A stretch of 47,093 nt of DNA from an uncultured Bacilli bacterium. Lineage in GTDB: Bacteria > Bacillota_I > Bacilli_A > RF39 > UBA660. Positions 4,589-12,436 of this stretch are shown piece after piece. The notes below the pieces were generated by a model. That model did not search any database. It had not been told where the DNA came from and saw nothing but the letters and a program-made list of their open reading frames with translations. The stretch is taken from assembly GCA_947627675.1 (NCBI GenBank), contig CANQWY010000006.1, positions 1 to 47,093 on the forward strand, read 5' to 3'. Made by a program: the position numbers and the translations under genes. Numbering within the stretch: position 1 is the first letter of the stretch; every line of letters begins with the position of its first letter.

Positions 4589-4614
4589 ATTAGGTGTCAA
4601 ATCTGACACCTAAT
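4589..4614. repeat. Palindrome copy overlapping the relaxase stop codon
   Basis: A 26-bp palindrome with a single arm mismatch (GGTGTCAA-AT-CTGACACC). It covers the relaxase TAG at 4610-4612 and lies just upstream of the parAB promoter, so parAB transcription is bracketed by two copies. Confidence 0.85.
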
Positions 4615-7387
4615 CAATTTCATCATTATTTTTCGCTAAACTTCTCTCTTGCATCAATTCGTACTCTCTAGCAAGCCTCTGTTTTTCTATCTGTTTTCTG
4701 GTAACATCCCTTAAAGCCCGTACCGCCATTCCTACTATAAATGTTTTTCCTATGGCAAATTGTCTATATCCACCTTTATAAAGATATTGATTATTGTCGA
4801 GATCATTTCTAATTTCAGCGGCAATCTCATTTCCATTCTCCATGGCTTGTTCTAACCATCTCTTTGCTACATCTATATTTCTGTTGATTACATCACCCTT
4901 AATATGCATGATTCCAATGTACATCTGTGCATAGGAATTATTCATCTGTGCGGAATTCAGCATTGCCTCTATTCCCTTATTAAAATTAAATGTTCCTTTT
5001 TCCCTATCCAGATATAATTTTCCTTTAAAGTATAATGAAAAGGAATTGTTGCATTTATCGAATTGTTCTATGGCTTTTTCATTATCACCTTGTTCCATAA
5101 ACACCTTACCAAGTTTATATGATGCAAATTCATTCCCGGCTTTTTCTGCTTTGCGGTACCATTCAATGGCCTTATCAGTATCCTTGATGTATTCCCTGTC
5201 AGATGAATAAATGTTTCCTAGGGAATACATTGCTATTGCGTTCTTACCTTTTGTTGCAGCTTTTTTGAGATATTCCACAGCTTTTAAGACTTCTTCCTGA
5301 TTATCCCTTTCAACATATATTTTTGCTAATTGATAATAAGCGTGTACGTTCCCGGCTTTGGCAGAACTATCTAAATATTTTTCTCCCAGTTTTGGGGCAA
5401 CTTCTGTTCCTTTTCCCTGTAGGTACATCATGCCTATTCTGTATTCTAAATTATCATCTTTCTCCATTCTTAAAAATGACTTCAGTGCCTTTTCATATAA
5501 TTTTCCATATTCCTCTCCGTCATATTCCACCTCATTATTTTCAATCATATTAGCAGCTTTATAACAGGCATATGCATTAAAACTTTTATCCTTCTCATCT
5601 GTCGATAATTGAATAAAGTAATTAAACGCTTTATCATAATTCTGTTCAGTTCCTTGTCCATAATAGCTCATTTTTCCTAAATTATATTTTGCATATTCTG
5701 TTTCTGATTTTTCAAAATAATTTCTTGCTTTATCATAATTCTGTTCAGTTCCTTGTCCGTAATAATATTGTTTACCAATTCTATATGCATAGTATGACCT
5801 TATATCTCGCTTATATTTTTCAGGGTACTTGCTTTCAGTTTCATAAAGTTCCTTAAAGTTATCAAGTGATGTCTTGTAATATTGTTGTGCTAATTCATTG
5901 TTAATTTCGCAGCCTTTGCCGGATTTATAAAAATCCCCCAAATCAGATGTTGCAAGCACATTACCGGTATAATGTTCATCCTCCAATAGTTCTTTTGCAG
6001 TTATATAATCCTTTTCCTCTCCATAGATTAATCTTTTTGCTTCCCTGTATTTTCTACTCCATTCACAATGTATTTTTGCTCCTAATCTTTGTTGCAAGTA
6101 CTCCTCTGGTTCCATATCTAAATCATTAAATTTTTCCAAGGTGTCAGTTCTGACACCCTGCTCTTTTTCCTCTATTTCAAACTGGGTGTCAGTTCTGACA
6201 CCCTGCTCTTTTTCCTCTATTTCAAACTGGGTGTCAGTTCTGACACCCTGGTTTTCTTCCTCTATTTCAAACTGGGTGTCAGTTCTGACACCCTGTGTAA
6301 TATCAATATTCACGTGCTTATTTTCTAATTCTTTTAAATTTTTATCATATGCCCGAACTTCTTTTAAGATTGCATTTCCTAACCTTTCATATAATTCTTT
6401 TATTTTTCCTTCAGAATAACTCTTTCCAGAATTTCCGTATGCTTCTTTGTAAATAATTTCTTGATTTTCCAGACTGTCTTTCAAAAGTTCAAAATCTTCC
6501 ATGTGATATTCACTGATATACATATCGCTTAACTGATCGACCATGGGTCTTACTGTTGCCATAATTGAATTATTATAATTCCACATGTTCTTATTGCAAT
6601 TAGGCATCCTGCGGTATAGCTCTTCGAACGCATTTTTTAACTTTTCATCTTTAGCAAAAGACTTTTTTTGCTTGACAATACTTTCTCTGATAATCTTATT
6701 AATCTTTATATTATTTTCTTTTTCGTTCAGAATTTGATTAACAACTTCTCTTTTGCAGATATTAATACTTTCCTGTTTAAACCGTCCTTTATATTCCATT
6801 TCCTTAATAGGTTGTCCGTTTTCATCAAGCATTGGAAACTTATATTTTACACCATCTTTAATTACTTCATCATACTGAATATATAGTTTTTTTTCTCTCA
6901 TAGGAACTGGTTCTACAGTTGCAATATGGGCATGGAGATTCCCCGTGTTGTAATGGAACGCCGCACTCCATACAGCATTATCTAATCCCTCATTGTGCAG
7001 CATCTTGCCAACGGCGCTTCTGATAACACCTTTTAATCTTTGTTCATCCAGTATATTGGTCTCTAAATTGTACAGACCATTGTTTTCCAGCCAACGGTTA
7101 TCAAAGCTGATAACCGTCTGCCACATCAGGCTTCCGTTTTTTTGAGCAGTTTCAAACACTGATTTTAATTCCTTTTTTTCTGCAAGTGTCAAATCTTTAT
7201 CGCTGGTAAATAATCCTGTAGTTTTTTCCGGATTCCCCATATAATCTTGATATAAATTGTATTGTGCTGTATTTTCATTTCTTACAGCATCTTCTCTATC
7301 GATGTAATTAATATAACCGGTAAATTTACTATCACCTTGTCTGCAAAATTCTGTTACCACGACACAGCCTGCATTGATTTTAGCCAT
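4610..7387 (-). CDS. MobL-like relaxase fused to Sel1-like repeats
   Basis: A 925-residue protein. Residues 1-160 resemble Firmicutes MobL relaxases: KFTGYINYIDR near 21-31 (candidate catalytic tyrosines) and the three-histidine metal site H145-x6-H152-x-H154 (HYNTGNLHAH). The relaxase would nick oriT and pilot the strand into the recipient. A helical linker follows. Residues ~365-415 are four 15-aa repeats (GVRTDTQFEIEEKEQ) encoded by DNA palindromes. From ~440 to ~880 there are tandem Sel1/TPR-like repeats (AYRIGKQYYYGQGTEQNYDKARNYFEKSE and relatives), a protein-protein scaffold not usual in short MobL enzymes. TAGGAGG precedes the ATG. The gene follows two small DNA-binding accessory genes. 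Confidence 0.85.
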   Translation of the reverse strand: MAKINAGCVVVTEFCRQGDSKFTGYINYIDREDAVRNENTAQYNLYQDYMGNPEKTTGLFTSDKDLTLAEKKELKSVFETAQKNGSLMWQTVISFDNRWLENNGLYNLETNILDEQRLKGVIRSAVGKMLHNEGLDNAVWSAAFHYNTGNLHAHIATVEPVPMREKKLYIQYDEVIKDGVKYKFPMLDENGQPIKEMEYKGRFKQESINICKREVVNQILNEKENNIKINKIIRESIVKQKKSFAKDEKLKNAFEELYRRMPNCNKNMWNYNNSIMATVRPMVDQLSDMYISEYHMEDFELLKDSLENQEIIYKEAYGNSGKSYSEGKIKELYERLGNAILKEVRAYDKNLKELENKHVNIDITQGVRTDTQFEIEEENQGVRTDTQFEIEEKEQGVRTDTQFEIEEKEQGVRTDTLEKFNDLDMEPEEYLQQRLGAKIHCEWSRKYREAKRLIYGEEKDYITAKELLEDEHYTGNVLATSDLGDFYKSGKGCEINNELAQQYYKTSLDNFKELYETESKYPEKYKRDIRSYYAYRIGKQYYYGQGTEQNYDKARNYFEKSETEYAKYNLGKMSYYGQGTEQNYDKAFNYFIQLSTDEKDKSFNAYACYKAANMIENNEVEYDGEEYGKLYEKALKSFLRMEKDDNLEYRIGMMYLQGKGTEVAPKLGEKYLDSSAKAGNVHAYYQLAKIYVERDNQEEVLKAVEYLKKAATKGKNAIAMYSLGNIYSSDREYIKDTDKAIEWYRKAEKAGNEFASYKLGKVFMEQGDNEKAIEQFDKCNNSFSLYFKGKLYLDREKGTFNFNKGIEAMLNSAQMNNSYAQMYIGIMHIKGDVINRNIDVAKRWLEQAMENGNEIAAEIRNDLDNNQYLYKGGYRQFAIGKTFIVGMAVRALRDVTRKQIEKQRLAREYELMQERSLAKNNDEID
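6140..6293. repeat. Four 45-bp tandem repeats, each carrying a GTTC-type palindrome, inside the relaxase gene
   Basis: Cores GGTGTCAGTTCTGACACC start at 6140, 6185, 6230 and 6275, an exact 45-bp period. The three at 6184, 6229 and 6274 extend to GGGTGTC...GACACCC. The spacers encode QFEIEE-xx-Q. The central TT makes them imperfect at the dyad, unlike the GATC copies in the par genes. Confidence 0.95.
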
Positions 7388-7407
7388 ATTTTACCTCCTA
7401 AAAAATT

Positions 7408-7427
7408 GGGTGTCAGTTCTGACACCC
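7408..7427. promoter_or_regulatory. GTTC-type palindrome between accessory gene and relaxase
   Basis: GGGTGTCAGTTCTGACACCC lies in the 45-bp gap between the stop at 7433 and the relaxase start at 7387, just upstream of the relaxase ribosome site. It could be an operator, a protein-loading site or an RNA hairpin affecting relaxase translation. Confidence 0.8.
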
Positions 7428-7432
7428 TTTTT

Positions 7433-7885
7433 TTAATTGACTTGTTTGCTATTTATTTTTTCTGCTTTTCTTCTTTTTCTGTCATCACTTTTCTGCTTAA
7501 AATATGCAATGCGTTCTTTAATGATTCCCCGGCTCTGTTTAATCAATGGATGAGGAACCGTTTCCGCCGGCATTAATGTTTTCATATCTTGCATATTAAT
7601 ATTTGGATCAAACATATAAAGCAGTGTATTTACAGCATCCAATATTACGATACTGTTTTGTTCTGCGGTCTGCAGCCCCCATCGCAACCTTTCTTTCTGC
7701 ATATATTTTTTGTCCAGTTCTTCCCTTACAGCCACTGCAATTTTCTCTTCCAGATTATCCTGCGAATGCATAATGAGATACTCTATCGCACTCGTATTGC
7801 TGGAAAATGCATTTTCCCTCGCAAACTTTTCAAGCAAATCAAATGTTTCATCTGACATATAAAAATTTCGTTGTTTTTTTGCCAT
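7433..7885 (-). CDS. Mobilisation accessory protein, MobC/ribbon-helix-helix-like
   Basis: A 150-residue, basic protein. The N-terminus (AKKQRNFYMSDETFDLLEKFARENAFSSNTSAIEYLIMHS) matches a ribbon-helix-helix pattern: a short strand followed by two helices. The rest is helical, with a Lys/Arg-rich tail (KQKSDDRKRRKAEKINSKQVN). Proteins of this kind bind oriT and help the relaxase form the relaxosome. It sits between a second RHH gene and the relaxase, which supports that role. The exact family is not certain. Confidence 0.7.
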   Translation of the reverse strand: MAKKQRNFYMSDETFDLLEKFARENAFSSNTSAIEYLIMHSQDNLEEKIAVAVREELDKKYMQKERLRWGLQTAEQNSIVILDAVNTLLYMFDPNINMQDMKTLMPAETVPHPLIKQSRGIIKERIAYFKQKSDDRKRRKAEKINSKQVN

Positions 7886-7897
7886 ATTTATTCCCTT

Positions 7898-8167
7898 CTA
7901 TTCCAAGGTGTCAGAAATGACACCTAATATTTTTTCTTCCAGAAGCATGTTTCTTTCAATCACATCATTCGCCTGTTCCAGTCTTTCTGCCAAATCATTT
8001 ATTAGTGCAGTATATTTATCCTCTATTTCCTCTATTTCTTTTGTTATTGCCAGCTGATTAAGATATGTCCTTAAAAATGCTTCCCTTTTCATTCCTTTTG
8101 CTGCCGCTGCCTCATCAATTTTTTTAATGATTACAGGATCGAGCCTTCTAACTTTTATTTCTGCCAA
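7898..8167 (-). CDS. Small ribbon-helix-helix regulator / relaxosome protein
   Basis: An 89-residue protein. Residues 1-45 (AEIKVRRLDPVIIKKIDEAAAAKGMKREAFLRTYLNQLA) show the classic RHH layout: basic strand, helix with the KGMKREAFLR turn, second helix. A coiled-coil-like tail follows and ends in the palindrome-encoded LGVISDTLE. It is the first gene downstream of the hairpin-rich candidate oriT and is 12 bp from the next mobilisation gene, so it probably binds oriT and/or represses the mob operon. RHH proteins bind short inverted or direct repeats as dimers. Confidence 0.75.
   Translation of the reverse strand: MAEIKVRRLDPVIIKKIDEAAAAKGMKREAFLRTYLNQLAITKEIEEIEDKYTALINDLAERLEQANDVIERNMLLEEKILGVISDTLE
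7907..7924. repeat. Diverged palindrome copy near the end of the RHH gene
   Basis: GGTGTCAGAAATGACACC has perfect outer arms (GGTGTCA/TGACACC) and a changed centre. In frame it encodes LGVISDT, two residues before the stop at 7898, paralleling LGVRSDT at the end of ParB. Confidence 0.85.
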
Positions 8168-8336
8168 TTTTTTACCTCTTGTATATAATATTTATTATAT
8201 ATTATATATTAGTTGCGAAGCACACGCAAGTATTTTTTCTACTGATTATCTACCAATTTTCCATTTTTTCCTTATTTCATATAAAAAATGCCTACCAGTC
8301 ACCTACTTTGCTGCTAATATATGTCCCCACGCAAAC

Positions 8337-8487
8337 CTTCGGCTTTGCCGAAGCCCCACACCTGTGTGGGGTCAGTTTTCTCTTATGCTCTTTCTAAAAT
8401 TACAAGTAATTTTAGAACCGTGGGCTTAAAGCCGGAATAGCTGCGCCCACGTCTGGAGCATCCGCTCCATGGACGACAAATGTCGTC
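8337..8487. other. oriT (candidate): Candidate oriT: six consecutive hairpins
   Basis: The 490-bp gap 8168-8657 holds no convincing gene. Within it are CTTCGGC-ttt-GCCGAAG (8337-8353), CCCCACAC-ct-GTGTGGGG (8354-8371), 12-bp arms TTCTAAAATTAC/GTAATTTTAGAA (8392-8417), CGTGGGC/GCCCACG (8419-8451), TGGAGC-atcc-GCTCCA (8454-8469) and GACGACA-aa-TGTCGTC (8472-8487). The TGCGCCC at 8442-8448 recalls the MOBQ nick region (GTGCGCCC). The position directly upstream of the mobilisation genes is typical of oriT. The nick site is inference. An alternative is a rolling-circle or single-strand origin. Confidence 0.55.
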
Positions 8488-8505
8488 AACAATAAAAAGA
8501 AAAAA
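8466..8505. repeat. 40-bp direct repeat, copy A
   Basis: Thirty-nine of 40 bases match the copy at 12397-12436. It contains the GACGACA-aa-TGTCGTC hairpin and an A-rich tail. Each copy ends a hairpin cluster and is followed within ~60 bp by a terminator-like stem. Confidence 0.9.
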
Positions 8506-8657: not shown

Positions 8658-9035
8658 TCAAGGTGCTTTTCGTGGTATTTTGCGGATACCTAAAAGTTCA
8701 TCGAAAATAGCATTTGCTAAAGCTGTATAGCGGATTGCAGACTGATTTACTTTTCTCCGTTCATCGTTGTCTCTGGTAACGAAAATCCGTTTTTTGCAGC
8801 TGGAAAGCATATCAATGACAGTATTTAATTCTCCCCATAGGTCTGCATTTTCGCTGACAGTGATGGTATCTTTTATCTTGTCTGCTTCCTGTGCGATATT
8901 TTCGGTCAGATGTAGTTTTTCTAACATCTTCTGTTCAATTTCCGTGTTGATTTCCTGTATCGGGTCTCTATAAAGACTGATGTTATGTTCTGTTGGTTCT
9001 ACACCGGAGAACACATAGAGATGGTTTATGTACAT
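8658..9035 (-). CDS. Hypothetical 125-aa protein
   Basis: I do not recognise the family. The protein is helical and charged, with a central coiled-coil-like stretch (EINTEIEQKMLEKLHLTENIAQEADKIKDTITV) and a basic C-terminus (IRKIPRKAP). AAGGAGG lies nine bases before the ATG, so translation is well supported. It is the last gene of a minus-strand cluster of small genes that begins after the large inverted repeat at 9729-9875, and it ends before a clear terminator. Its position next to the candidate oriT suggests an early-expressed transfer or establishment gene, but nothing in the sequence shows a function. Confidence 0.7.
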   Translation of the reverse strand: MYINHLYVFSGVEPTEHNISLYRDPIQEINTEIEQKMLEKLHLTENIAQEADKIKDTITVSENADLWGELNTVIDMLSSCKKRIFVTRDNDERRKVNQSAIRYTALANAIFDELLGIRKIPRKAP

Positions 9036-9272: not shown

Positions 9273-9467
9273 TTATTTAAATTTCATTGTATGTACTACT
9301 TTGTTAATATACTCAAAACTAACCCGATAAGGTTTTTTCCTTATTTCATTATCTTTCATAATTTGCGCATATATCAGTGCCGGAAGTTCAAATAATGCTG
9401 TACATTTAGGATAAAGTCTTACAGCCTGATTTCTTATCTCCATTTCAATTTCTTCTCTTCTAGTCAT
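9273..9467 (-). CDS. Hypothetical 64-aa protein
   Basis: The product is small and mixed in charge (MTRREEIEMEIRNQAVRLYPKCTALFELPALIYAQIMKDNEIRKKPYRVSF...). An AAAGGAG site precedes the ATG, and the start overlaps the stop of the upstream 49-aa gene (ATGACTAG), so the pair is translationally coupled. Family not recognised. Confidence 0.65.
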   Translation of the reverse strand: MTRREEIEMEIRNQAVRLYPKCTALFELPALIYAQIMKDNEIRKKPYRVSFEYINKVVHTMKFK

Positions 9468-9609
9468 TTTTGTTCTCCTTTCTTTTTATTTTCTTGAAAG
9501 ATTTTTCAATTTCTCTATCAATGCAGCCACTCCAAAGTTGGTTTTTTGTACCAGTACAGCTACTATTAAATTTTTTACAATTCAAACACATTGAATTTAA
9601 CATATTCAT
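9460..9609 (-). CDS. 49-aa cysteine-rich small protein, probable zinc binder
   Basis: The ATG at 9609 follows CAGGAGG by seven bases. The product carries C8-x2-C11-x6-C18-x10-C29 (CLNCKKFNSSC...WSGC), a likely zinc-knuckle arrangement, then a strongly basic tail. The gene overlaps the next one by eight bases. It belongs to the cluster downstream of the 9729-9875 inverted repeat. Function is unknown. Nucleic-acid binding is plausible from the zinc motif and basic tail. Confidence 0.6.
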   Translation of the reverse strand: MNMLNSMCLNCKKFNSSCTGTKNQLWSGCIDREIEKSFKKIKRKENKND

Positions 9610-9728
9610 TTTTTGTTCCTCCTGTTTTTTTAATTGTTTCTGGAATGTTCGGGATTGGGTGCTTCCCTTTTTCAGTTGCTATTAAGTTTTCATGCTAAAT
9701 CGCCTCCTTTTTTTTATTTAATTGTTTC

Positions 9729-9875
9729 TGTATATGTCGGTGTTGGTTTGCTTGCATACGAAAAAAATTGTTTTGCAAATTCTGTCCAAGGGCGCGCGTA
9801 GCGCGTGCATTTTACCCTTGCAGAATTTGCAAAACAATTTAGTATGCATCAAAGCAAACAAATCCGATATATACA
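9729..9875. other. Large imperfect inverted repeat IR1 (candidate single-stranded promoter or origin)
   Basis: Nested arms: TGTATATGTCGG/CCGATATATACA (one mismatch), GTTTGCTT/AAGCAAAC (9746-9753/9852-9859), GCATAC/GTATGC (9754-9759/9842-9847), the 20-bp AAATTGTTTTGCAAATTCTG with its complement (9765-9784/9821-9840), then CAAGGG/CCCTTG (9787-9792/9815-9820). The 34-bp apex 9787-9820 matches 32 of 34 bases in IR2 at 12024-12057, while the arms differ in sequence but still pair. It lies upstream of the minus-strand cluster 9609-8658. Open frames inside it are artefacts of the repeat. Confidence 0.8.
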
Positions 9876-9959
9876 TTGAAACATATAAAAAAAAGGGCTG
9901 AAATGTGCATGAAAACGCAAATAGCATCGTCCGTTTCCGTTATATAATCGGATGTAAAA

Positions 9960-9989
9960 GGATATAGAAGGATATAGAAAGATATACAA
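9960..9989. repeat. Three 10-bp tandem repeats
   Basis: GGATATAGAA, GGATATAGAA, AGATATACAA run head to tail between IR1 and the terminator at 9993. Their role is unknown. They could be a small binding-site array. Confidence 0.6.
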
Positions 9990-9992
9990 AAA

Positions 9993-10029
9993 AGCCAGCA
10001 ATAATCAACAAATCTGATTATTGCTGGCT
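9993..10029. terminator. Terminator of the YubB-like gene
   Basis: AGCCAGCAATAATC (9993-10006) pairs with GATTATTGCTGGCT (10016-10029), a perfect 14-bp stem. Read on the minus strand it ends in a T run, 23 bp after the stop at 10052. Confidence 0.9.
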
Positions 10030-10051
10030 CTTCTGTTATTTGCAATCAGAA

Positions 10052-10600
10052 TTAATCTCTGCTGTATTGATGCGCACTTCCAATATCCATGTCATCAATA
10101 AAATCTTTGACTTCTTCAAATGATGTAAATTGGTGATTAGCAATGACTTCACTCATATATGTACATAATTCTTTTTCCGTCTCAAAATAGTAATAGTCGT
10201 CTGTTAATCCCTGGTATTTTTCCCATATATCCAATAAATAATTTTCCGGAAAATGAATTGCATCCAAATCGTTATGAATGACGTAAATTTCCATTCCGCA
10301 TTCTTCTGACAGCGATGCATATTTCAAATCCATTTTTTCTGTAAAAACATCCCAAAAATCATTTACGGGTTCCCATGCAGTTTCAACATCAAGAAATAGT
10401 GAACCATCATCAGATCTGTCAATATAATGAATGCTTCCTCGACAATAAATATCTTCTGAAATATCTATTTCTAATTCTTCAGCAACTTCAGATAAAGCAT
10501 ATATTTTTTTGTCAAGACAATCCTTTAATTTTATCCAGGCATTATGTAGTTTCTCTTCATCTCCCATAAGTTTCACTCTGTTGAAACAAAAATTTGGCAT
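10052..10600 (-). CDS. YubB/Api92-like ferredoxin-fold protein (DUF1281-type)
   Basis: The 182-residue product opens with MPNFCFNRVKLMGDEEKLHNAW, the signature start (MPNWCxNxxxxxG) of plasmid and phage YubB/Api92-like proteins. ETAWEPVNDFWDVFTEKM and EECGMEIYVIH follow, also in keeping with that family. These are common on conjugative plasmids, often in early-entering regions. Their biochemical role is unknown. GAAAGGAG precedes the ATG. The only space upstream is a strong terminator ending 23 bp before the start, so expression probably depends on read-through from the DUF5688 gene. Confidence 0.75.
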   Translation of the reverse strand: MPNFCFNRVKLMGDEEKLHNAWIKLKDCLDKKIYALSEVAEELEIDISEDIYCRGSIHYIDRSDDGSLFLDVETAWEPVNDFWDVFTEKMDLKYASLSEECGMEIYVIHNDLDAIHFPENYLLDIWEKYQGLTDDYYYFETEKELCTYMSEVIANHQFTSFEEVKDFIDDMDIGSAHQYSRD

Positions 10601-10622
10601 AACATATCTCCTTTCATAAAAA

Positions 10623-10663
10623 ATAATCTTCCCATAAGGTATTAACCCTTATGGGAAGATTAT
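10623..10663. terminator. Strong intergenic terminator/attenuator
   Basis: Perfect 16-bp arms ATAATCTTCCCATAAG (10623-10638) and CTTATGGGAAGATTAT (10648-10663), followed on the minus strand by a run of six T. It sits between the DUF5688 gene and the YubB-like gene with no room for another promoter. Confidence 0.9.
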
Positions 10664-10672
10664 CGGTTATAA

Positions 10673-11572
10673 TCAATAAATACTTAATTCTCCATTTTTG
10701 TAAATATAAACATTATTTGTAAGAACTTCATCTTCAGGCACTTCTTTTTCATTAATCTCCCTAACCATCATTCTTATGTCTTCAGGTTTTGCACGATCAA
10801 CAGAAATTGCAATGCATTCATGAATCGAACTTGGAATTAAGACAAATTCTCCAGTGGAGAATTTATGACTTAATTCCGTTAGGGCATTTCCATTTAAAAT
10901 TACTGAAGCACCATTAGTTTTTTTACTATTTGTAATGATGAACATTGGAAATTTTTCATTTAACTCTGTTTCCAGCTCAAAATCTTGAGGTTTCCCGATT
11001 AGCTCATAAATAAATTCATTCATATTTACAATCTGGTAGTCATTCAATATGTTATCCTGTGCATTTTCCCATATTTCATCATTGCTGATGTTGTAGGAAA
11101 ATAATACTTTATTCTGAATCGTAAAATTTGCTACTCCATCATCATAGTTAATAAATTCTGTAACATCGACAATGAATAAAATAAGCATATCCAAAAATCT
11201 ACGATATGTTATATCATGTGCTTTAACTTCAGCAATATTGTCTTCTGATACTAATTTTATCTTGACGTGAGATAATATATAATCTCTGCTGAAGACTTCT
11301 TCCATCTCTTTAACGTGACTTTTGCTCTCTTGAAAAATTTGCTGCAGATAATCAACAACCATTGTATCTGATTCCCAAAAATCTTTCATATGTTCAAAGT
11401 AAATCGTTGGAGCTGTGTTACTTTCATCGCTATGCAGGATGTAACCAACCTTCGAACCGTTGTTCTTAAAATTGTTGGTTGCAATAATTTTAAAATCCAT
11501 TCCCCTCTCTTTAATCAGTTTGTTAAGCTCGTCAACTCTATTGAGCATTTCAGTGTTTCTTTCTGTTACCAT
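10673..11572 (-). CDS. DUF5688-family protein
   Basis: The 299-residue product resembles DUF5688 proteins, widespread in Lachnospiraceae and their mobile elements. Recognisable parts are MFIITNSKKTNGASVILNGNALTELSHKFS, FVLIPSSIHECIAISVD and the end EVLTNNVYIYKNGELSIY. Function is unknown. I chose the ATG at 11572, preceded by GGCGGAAAGGAG. A frame open to 11641 would overlap the upstream gene and lacks a ribosome site. The 21-bp leader with its small hairpin (GCCGAAAGGC) is identical in its ribosome-site part to that of the rep gene at 17900-17920. Confidence 0.8.
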   Translation of the reverse strand: MVTERNTEMLNRVDELNKLIKERGMDFKIIATNNFKNNGSKVGYILHSDESNTAPTIYFEHMKDFWESDTMVVDYLQQIFQESKSHVKEMEEVFSRDYILSHVKIKLVSEDNIAEVKAHDITYRRFLDMLILFIVDVTEFINYDDGVANFTIQNKVLFSYNISNDEIWENAQDNILNDYQIVNMNEFIYELIGKPQDFELETELNEKFPMFIITNSKKTNGASVILNGNALTELSHKFSTGEFVLIPSSIHECIAISVDRAKPEDIRMMVREINEKEVPEDEVLTNNVYIYKNGELSIY

Positions 11573-11631
11573 ATGTAACTCCTTTCCGCCTTTCGGCACT
11601 AAAATTTTATATATAAATAAAGAGTTTGGAA

Positions 11632-11931
11632 TTACTCCCAAACTCTATATTTACTGGAAAAACCGGAAATGTATGTTTTTCCAAGGATGCATAATAGAAC
11701 ATCATCCCAGGTTTTTTTCTGATATGCTGGAACTCGTTTAGTGGCTTTTTTCAACCAGCGACCTAAATAGTTATAATCTTCAACAACATGTAAATTAAAT
11801 CTGTATTTAATTTCTCTTTGGTCATCTTGTCGATTTCGCTCTTTCATCTGTTCCAATCGAAGATCTGATATATCCAAAACTTCGATTTCAACGATTCCCT
11901 TCTGGAAACTTACTGAATTAATTTCTATCAT
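11632..11931 (-). CDS. Hypothetical 99-aa protein
   Basis: The family is not recognised. The product is a mixed alpha/beta-looking small protein (MIEINSVSFQKGIVEIEVLDISDLRLEQMKERN...KKTWDDVLLCILGK). AGGAGG lies nine bases before the ATG. It is the first gene after the large inverted repeat at 11950-12126 and leads the cluster with the DUF5688 and YubB-like genes, so it may be expressed early during transfer if that repeat is a single-stranded promoter. Confidence 0.65.
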   Translation of the reverse strand: MIEINSVSFQKGIVEIEVLDISDLRLEQMKERNRQDDQREIKYRFNLHVVEDYNYLGRWLKKATKRVPAYQKKTWDDVLLCILGKTYISGFSSKYRVWE

Positions 11932-11949
11932 AACAATTTCCTCCTAGAT

Positions 11950-12126
11950 TTTATTTAAGTTGTCATTGTGCGCTGCATCTACGTTTGATGCAATTTCGTT
12001 AAACTGCGTTGAATACAAAATGACAAGGGCGCGCACAGCGCGTGCATTTTACCCTTGCACTTTGTATTCCATAAGCAGTAGAAATTACAGCTTCAAACGT
12101 GCAGCGTATCATGACAACTTAATAAA
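11950..12126. other. Large imperfect inverted repeat IR2 (candidate single-stranded promoter or origin)
   Basis: Nested pairs from outside in: TTAAGTTGTCAT/ATGACAACTTAA, GCGCTGC/GCAGCGT, ACGTTTGA/TCAAACGT, CTGC/GCAG, GAATACAAA/TTTGTATTC (12011-12019/12061-12069), CAAGGG/CCCTTG (12024-12029/12052-12057). Mismatched bases between the stems are regularly spaced. Its apex (starts CAAGGGCGCGC, ends ATTTTACCCTTG) is shared with IR1 although the arms are unrelated. It stands directly before the ribosome site of the gene at 11931. On the minus strand CCCTTGTCA gives a TTGTCA -35-like box next to a bulge. Confidence 0.8.
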
Positions 12127-12185
12127 ATCCAGACAAAATGATTAATAGATATATTTACACTTCCCCACACATGAAGAAGCTAAAA

Positions 12186-12354
12186 AAACACGCCCCGGGT
12201 GTGTATATACACTCCTAGGGCGTGTTTCCTGCGCGCCACTATGATGGGTGAAACCCATCACTTTAAAAGTGGTGTCGCAATCCTGTCCGGAGGACCGGCA
12301 ATGGAAAGCGCAACGTGCTGTCCGTTGCCATACTTCCGGCATCTATGGCGGAAG
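12186..12354. other. Second hairpin cluster, oriT- or origin-like
   Basis: The gap 12127-12577 has no convincing gene. Hairpins: AAACACGCCC/GGGCGTGTTT (12186-12227) enclosing the palindrome GTGTATATACAC, GATGGGT-gaa-ACCCATC (12243-12259), CACTTT/AAAGTG (12259-12271), CTTCCG/CGGAAG (12333-12354). CTGCGCGCCAC at about 12229-12239 resembles CTGCGCCCAC of the first cluster. It ends with the shared 40-bp repeat and a terminator, so the two clusters have the same architecture. Confidence 0.55.
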
Positions 12355-12396
12355 TTACCTTTTTTAATTTCATACTACCAAAATAATAAACTCTTT

Positions 12397-12436
12397 TCCA
12401 TGGACGACAAATGTCGTCAGCAATAAAAAGAAAAAA
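12397..12436. repeat. 40-bp direct repeat, copy B
   Basis: Matches 8466-8505 at 39 of 40 positions, in the same orientation, 3.9 kb away. It includes the hairpin GACGACA-aa-TGTCGTC. Confidence 0.9.

Follow-up and report, generated by a model that had tools for sequence, protein, structure and literature searches.

Two long hairpins of a MOBL conjugative element as predicted Frpo-type single-stranded DNA promoters of Gram-positive bacteria

We analysed 47,093 nt of contig CANQWY010000006.1 from an uncultured Bacilli bacterium (the whole stretch is called the window below, with coordinates on its forward, or +, strand) and found two long imperfect hairpins of the + strand, the inverted repeats IR1 (9725-9882) and IR2 (11945-12132), which from their sequence are likely Frpo-type single-stranded DNA (ssDNA) promoters of two operons in the leading region of a MOBL conjugative element. 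We infer that RNA polymerase makes use of the folded structure; the fold, its covariation, the identity of the folded strand, the positions of the -35, the -10 and a bulge, and a core in common with Frpo1 of F were computed here. On the best reading, the hairpins belong to a Gram-positive branch of Frpo-type promoters that is described in no paper we found.

Folded as ssDNA with DNA parameters, IR1 reached a minimum free energy of -49.5 kcal/mol (shuffle mean -18.4, z=-10.1) and IR2 of -52.3 kcal/mol (shuffle mean -21.2, z=-10.6), and with RNA parameters both were within the top four distinct structures of the window, the other two lying at 12181 and 6121. Each repeat makes one hairpin, 158-188 nt in length; IR1 also appears as a long hairpin in a drawing of its duplex and matches the covariance model described below at 55.7 bits, and IR2 matches it at 52.0 bits. 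The arms of IR1 and IR2 are unrelated in sequence, yet pair over ~60 bp in each, and the 34-nt apices (9787-9820 and 12024-12057, +) are identical at 32/34 positions (CAAGGGCGCGCgtAGCGCGTGCATTTTACCCTTG versus ...acAGCGCG...). The IR1 apex consists of CAAGGG, an inner stem CGCGC..GCGCG, an unpaired TGCATTTTA (9806-9814) and CCCTTG; TGCATTTTA is unpaired at 12043-12051 in IR2, and the apex is common to IR2 and 75 genome stretches found by pattern. A reading of this DNA made from sequence only had described giant hairpins at these places, with unrelated arms pairing over about 60 bases and a nearly identical apex, and all of this was borne out. Rfam scans gave no credible match at IR1 or IR2 at the gathering score, the best, mir-2778, being far below it.

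We then examined 42 non-redundant sequences of the homologue set, on which a covariance model (R1) was built. The stem around the apex was 91.9% paired compared to 67% in shuffles, and the covariation score was 0.593 compared to 0.143, a signal lost with any slide of the register. The inner mini-stem varies as CGCGC/GCGCG, CTACC/GGTAG, CGGC/GCCG, TTGC/GCAA and others. To judge which strand folds, we disallowed GU pairs in the folding and compared the single mismatches that the helices tolerate. On the + strand, G.T mismatches outnumbered A.C mismatches 32 to 11 with DNA parameters and 36 to 14 with RNA parameters, with the same lean in both subgroups (13:4 and 19:7), indicating that the folded molecule is the + strand, since structure in a minus-strand mRNA would give the reverse. 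Selection on a folded strand, as proposed earlier, is thus supported by covariation, and the wobble asymmetry names the strand.

The folded strand also carries a promoter motif, defined as TTGNNN, a spacer of 15-19 nt (16 or 17 typical) and TANNNT, read on the right arm after CCCTTG. This pair was present in 25 of 39 non-redundant elements, compared to a mean of 3.9 and a maximum of 10 in 2000 shuffles, and in 15 of the 28 elements outside a group associated with recombinase genes (see below), whereas only 2/39 show it on the gene-sense strand of the duplex, which derives from the left arm. Copies that played no part in deriving the rule also fit it, among them that of pCF10 (TTGTCT-16-TACTGT) and others that the model retrieved from enterococci. 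In IR1, the -35-like TTGCAG (9818-9823, +), a mimic of the non-template strand, is followed at a spacer of 16 by TAGTAT (9840-9845, +), a place at which a 4-nt bulge interrupts the template arm and a G lies opposite the A of TA; in IR2, TTGCAC (12055-12060, +) is followed at a spacer of 18 by TAGAAA (12079-12084, +), which agrees at 4 of 6 positions and fails TANNNT. The sequence-only reading had taken CCCTTGGACA and CCCTTGTCA as -35-like boxes of the minus strand; the letters are correct, but the useful -35/-10 pair lies on the + right arm instead. In 17 of the 25 elements with the motif, a template-arm bulge of 2-6 nt falls within -2 to +3 of the -12 T (the -12/-11 step), and 8-11 nt beyond the bulge, at the would-be transcription start, up to 76% of cases show an unpaired right arm. 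As modelled, the bulge at -12/-11 and the unpaired start patch resemble an open complex formed beforehand.

The + strand is probably the transferred strand (T-strand), as judged from the anatomy of the origin of transfer (oriT) and from the pLS20 MOBL precedent. The window encodes a MobL-family relaxase (4610-7387, minus; Pfam PF18555, 4e-81), and a candidate oriT block (8264-8395, +), conserved, non-coding and common to a syntenic Lachnospiraceae locus (L062), holds the inverted repeat CCCCACACCTGTGTGGGG and then TCAGTTTTCTCTTATGCTCTTTCT, with a putative nick site. On the + strand this repeat lies 5' of the conserved CTTATGCTCTTT shared with L062, an order usual on a cleaved strand. The layout matches that of pLS20, so we expect the + strand to be the T-strand and the leading region to lie above 8.4 kb. 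The hairpins had been described as standing just before minus-strand genes and next to the candidate oriT; the genes are there, whereas the oriT lies ~1.3 kb from IR1 and ~3.5 kb from IR2. L062 keeps the gene order of the window: MobL is followed by the same pair of small genes and the oriT block, after which come one hairpin, the corresponding operon and another hairpin. The hairpin arms have diverged from those of the window. In pCF10, the oriT repeat and a nick-like sequence, presumably the nick position, make the hairpin strand the T-strand, and the hairpin copies of pCF10, F and ColIb-P9 all sit on the T-strand.

In the mechanism that we propose, the + strand would enter the recipient 5' end first, from oriT at ~8.3 kb, and each repeat on the entering strand would snap back into a long hairpin. 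The right arm would serve as non-template strand, supplying the -35 (TTGCAG/TTGCAC) and the -10 (TAGTAT/TAGAAA), with the left arm as template, and the template bulge at -12/-11 and the unpaired start-site patch would mimic an open complex, allowing host RNA polymerase to start without melting and to run leftward off the hairpin into the operons at 9609-8658 and 11931-10052. Upon second-strand synthesis the arms would part into ordinary duplex, the gene-sense strand of which has no -10, and the promoter would be off; the rarity of a gene-sense -10 (2/39) agrees with such an off state.

Comparison with known ssDNA promoters supports this reading. Frpo1 and Frpo2 of F are required for early expression in recipients (PMC9849209). 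Frpo1, upstream of ygeA, reads GTGCATTTCACCC on the T-strand where the Firmicutes family reads GTGCATTTTACCC, preceded by an inner hairpin; Frpo2, ahead of ssb, shows GTTCATTTACCC at the corresponding position, also on the T-strand and with an inner hairpin before it; and ColIb-P9 has GTGCATCTCACCC on the T-strand upstream of ssb, the same unpaired core next to the -35. As predicted for the window, these are T-strand hairpins of leading regions that drive genes templated by the T-strand. The core of 13 nt, which matches Frpo1 at 12/13 positions, is the sole shared sequence: the hairpins of F have a far longer inner stem, close with CCAGGGG/CCCCTGG rather than CAAGGG/CCCTTG, have unrelated arms, and read approximately TGGACT-17-CTGTCT, whereas the Firmicutes family mostly reads TTG-N16/17-TANNNT.

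An intermediate is found on an F-like plasmid of Enterobacter kobei (L083:1113-1194), where a hairpin reading CAAGGG...GTGCATTTCACCCTTG matches R1, which was built from Firmicutes only, at E 4e-8. The leading region in which it lies carries genes for antirestriction, a methyltransferase, ParM and UmuD; the hairpin differs in its Gram-negative host, in one core base and in two mismatches of the inner stem (G.A, A.G). By our own reading, adjacent G.A and A.G replace Watson-Crick pairs in the apex inner stems of both this plasmid and pCF10 (L099). Enterococcal plasmids (pCF10, pTEF2 and ATCC 29212 plasmid 2) share the model, the strand relation and TTG-N16/17-TANNNT with the window; their hairpins lie upstream of PcfM/AcrIIA9/PcfJ/SSB/DnaJ-type genes, and several have a shorter core (GTTCATATACCC, GTTTATATACCC). 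EGeRS1 and EGeRS2 of pLS20-family plasmids resemble IR1 and IR2 in belonging to a Firmicutes MOBL element and in controlling establishment genes. EGeRS1, however, is ~600 bp with many repeats, and its authors judge the pLS20 regulators to be no ssDNA promoters, because the transferred strand is there the non-template strand (PMC8708921); IR1 and IR2 do not fit the description of EGeRS1, and in the window the T-strand would be the template.

The apex pattern CAAGGGN{6,16}GCATTTTACCCTTG, run on a one-genome-per-species collection, found 75 stretches, mainly in Clostridia and Enterococcus, versus ~5 by chance according to our own estimate, and three stretches in IMG/VR. An enterococcal copy used as query returned 650 plasmid records, 630 of them from Enterococcus. 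Enterococcal plasmids yield two to three R1 matches apiece, all on the strand that templates the neighbouring genes, and R1 also locates one in pCF10 (L099:19689-19769) and one in pTEF2. Within the window's own phylum, R1 matched (E 1e-4) only 4/392 genomes, in line with a mobile rather than chromosomal feature. The family had been called unrecognised and perhaps new for Gram-positive plasmids; it is in fact common on Enterococcus plasmids and has the core of F Frpo1, but no paper was found that describes ssDNA promoters of Enterococcus or Clostridia elements, although Samuel et al. 2024 may list one in their supplement or in Extended Data Fig. 5b (Enterococcus durans). Published Frpo searches used BLAST from known Frpo sequences (PMC11541004, PMC12826799), a method by which the Firmicutes branch was probably missed.

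Could the hairpins instead be single-strand initiation sites (sso/ssi), at which polymerase mainly makes second-strand primers and expression of neighbouring genes is incidental? The same anatomy would suffice, Frpo itself is reportedly both a promoter and a maker of second-strand primers (Masai and Arai 1997), and the recombinase group lies beside HUH Rep genes, in elements with a likely rolling-circle stage. The sso of ICEBs1 and rolling-circle plasmids is likewise folded ssDNA recognised by RNA polymerase in Gram-positives. We nevertheless consider this unlikely, given that each window hairpin abuts the Shine-Dalgarno sequence of its own operon, that a terminator parts these two operons, and that enterococcal plasmids carry two or three hairpins on the strand templating the adjacent genes. 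ICEBs1 sso1 also differs in having three stem-loops, whereas the window hairpins are paired with operons, and the CS-6 box of ssoA, which we take to be TAGCG(A/T) in the loop, was found in 0/53 apex variants.

Two further explanations seem very improbable to us. The hairpins lie close ahead of start codons, and a mini-ORF is conserved in the IR1 leader, as would suit mRNA leaders in which minus-strand RNA structure regulates downstream genes from an ordinary upstream promoter; but wobbles are tolerated on the + strand and avoided on the minus strand, Rfam gives no match, no above-chance minus-strand promoter lies directly upstream of either hairpin, and a conserved -10 would be meaningless in RNA. 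The right arm might alternatively be an ordinary duplex promoter firing rightward on the + strand (antisense), or the inverted repeat a cruciform, a protein-binding site or a dispersed repeat with no transfer role: TTG-N16-TANNNT reads 5' to 3' on the + strand in duplex as well, and one genome has the hairpin within a ~310-bp dispersed repeat. Arm pairing and the -10 bulge would then go unexplained, most groups have no consistent gene rightward on the + strand, and the strand asymmetry speaks against a symmetrical cruciform role.

An Frpo-type promoter remains the reading supported by covariation, wobble asymmetry, a -35/-10 confined to the folded strand, the -10 bulge and T-strand orientation, as the sequence-only reading had proposed, and several points weigh against it. 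Biased mutation of a strand that is frequently single-stranded could swell the G.T excess, and the homologues are related, so that the shuffle counts are no strict probabilities. The IR2 -10 is only TAGAAA at spacer 18, and the nick position in the window's oriT block is a predicted one. R1 fails to pick up F Frpo (L084 gave nothing at E values up to 10), and the link to F consists of the short core and intermediates such as E. kobei; similarity of overall sequence to known Frpo at model or BLAST level, which forms no part of the functional definition, is too low for R1 to score F, and we therefore describe the family as working like Frpo and sharing its core, not as a member by sequence. Finally, some copies lie outside recognisable transfer regions, in Rep-hairpin-recombinase elements, the ~310-bp dispersed repeat and Bacteroidota blocks. 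Homologues away from transfer regions and lacking covariation had been named as grounds for rejecting an Frpo-type promoter; some homologues do lie elsewhere, yet the family covaries.

The recombinase-group, dispersed-repeat and Bacteroidota copies were kept out of the functional claim. At ~30 Clostridia loci the apex lies near a large serine recombinase gene, most often ~105 nt upstream, and 18 of these loci also have an HUH Rep gene (REP_ORF2-G2P), mostly across the hairpin from the recombinase. They resemble integrating rolling-circle elements, making an ssDNA stage likely. Compact HUH Rep-hairpin-large serine recombinase cassettes occur at L003:338-2963 and at ~17 similar loci in gut Clostridia; the L003 recombinase gene ends beside a tRNA, and the cassettes may be small integrating rolling-circle elements. 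The recombinase N-terminus has few close relatives in plasmid records. In one Clostridiales genome the hairpin forms part of a non-coding dispersed repeat of ~310 bp, present in at least 9 copies (JAISIR contigs: L005, L017, L018, L058, L065); this repeat has a sharp left end after a T-run, and its neighbours include recG and ruvC (genes named from their translations). In six Bacteroidota loci (L004, L024, L066, L073, L026, L051) the apex lies in a conserved non-coding block, on which ground a coding coincidence was rejected. Several of these loci adjoin defence genes such as DarT/macro and Piwi, the latter with a helicase, and reverse transcriptase and Fic genes are also among the neighbours; a '172-aa gene' after the apex was set aside as probably translated conserved DNA, with no family. 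It is possible, and we propose it only tentatively, that one ssDNA promoter family with a TGCATTTTA-like unpaired core beside the -35 spans Proteobacteria, Firmicutes and perhaps Bacteroidota, serving any element with an ssDNA stage and not conjugative plasmids alone; on this view, the arrangement at the Clostridia recombinase loci suggests that recombinase expression is tied to the single-stranded state.

Downstream of the hairpins, IR2 adjoins the ribosome-binding site of the minus-strand cluster 11931-10052. This operon consists of a 99-aa gene with no family (11632-11931, minus), its Shine-Dalgarno sequence directly after the hairpin; a DUF5688 protein of 322 aa as listed (10673-11641, minus; Pfam PF18941, 4e-47); and a 182-aa protein of no known family with a syntenic homologue in L062 (10052-10600, minus). 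A strong intrinsic terminator (9988-10034, minus) closes it ahead of IR1. IR1 adjoins the ribosome-binding site of a mini-ORF, ATG AAA ACT TAA (9682-9693, minus), in the leader of the cluster 9609-8658; the mini-ORF is kept as ATG-AAA-ACN-TAA with its own Shine-Dalgarno sequence in the L062 and L076 equivalents. The cluster comprises a first small protein gene (9461-9609, minus, the end coordinate read from the sequence) with a homologue after the hairpin in L076, a 64-aa protein (9273-9467, minus) and a 125-aa protein (8658-9035, minus), the last with a possible promoter of its own (TTGAGT-16-TATAAT at 9102-9075, minus).

Other repeats and folds occur nearby. Immediately to the right of IR2, GC-rich hairpins cluster at 12181-12360 and make up the window's strongest fold (-88.5 in 180 nt, RNA parameters). 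A 40-bp direct repeat containing the palindrome GACGACAAATGTCGTC flanks the IR1/IR2 segment (8466-8505 and 12397-12436); a second oriT at 12.4 kb, suggested by this repeat, was rejected, as the two places have nothing beyond the short repeat in common. The palindrome GGTGTCAGTTCTGACACC is repeated at 6134-7939, with several copies within and ahead of the MobL gene, and is a possible regulator site.

For F-type plasmids it is established that genes are expressed early from the entering ssDNA. The literature consulted on Gram-positive plasmids describes only other mechanisms (pLS20) or reports no similar sequence (an S. pneumoniae island). The core in common with F Frpo, together with copies on hundreds of Enterococcus plasmids, means that early gene switching in recipients may be alike across phyla. 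The preformed bubble would offer a natural substrate for studies of sigma-70 initiation. With its defined -35, bulged -10 and strand rule, the motif can be searched for, and it would account for how enterococcal and gut Clostridia plasmids could express establishment genes, anti-CRISPR and SSB genes among them, while still single-stranded.

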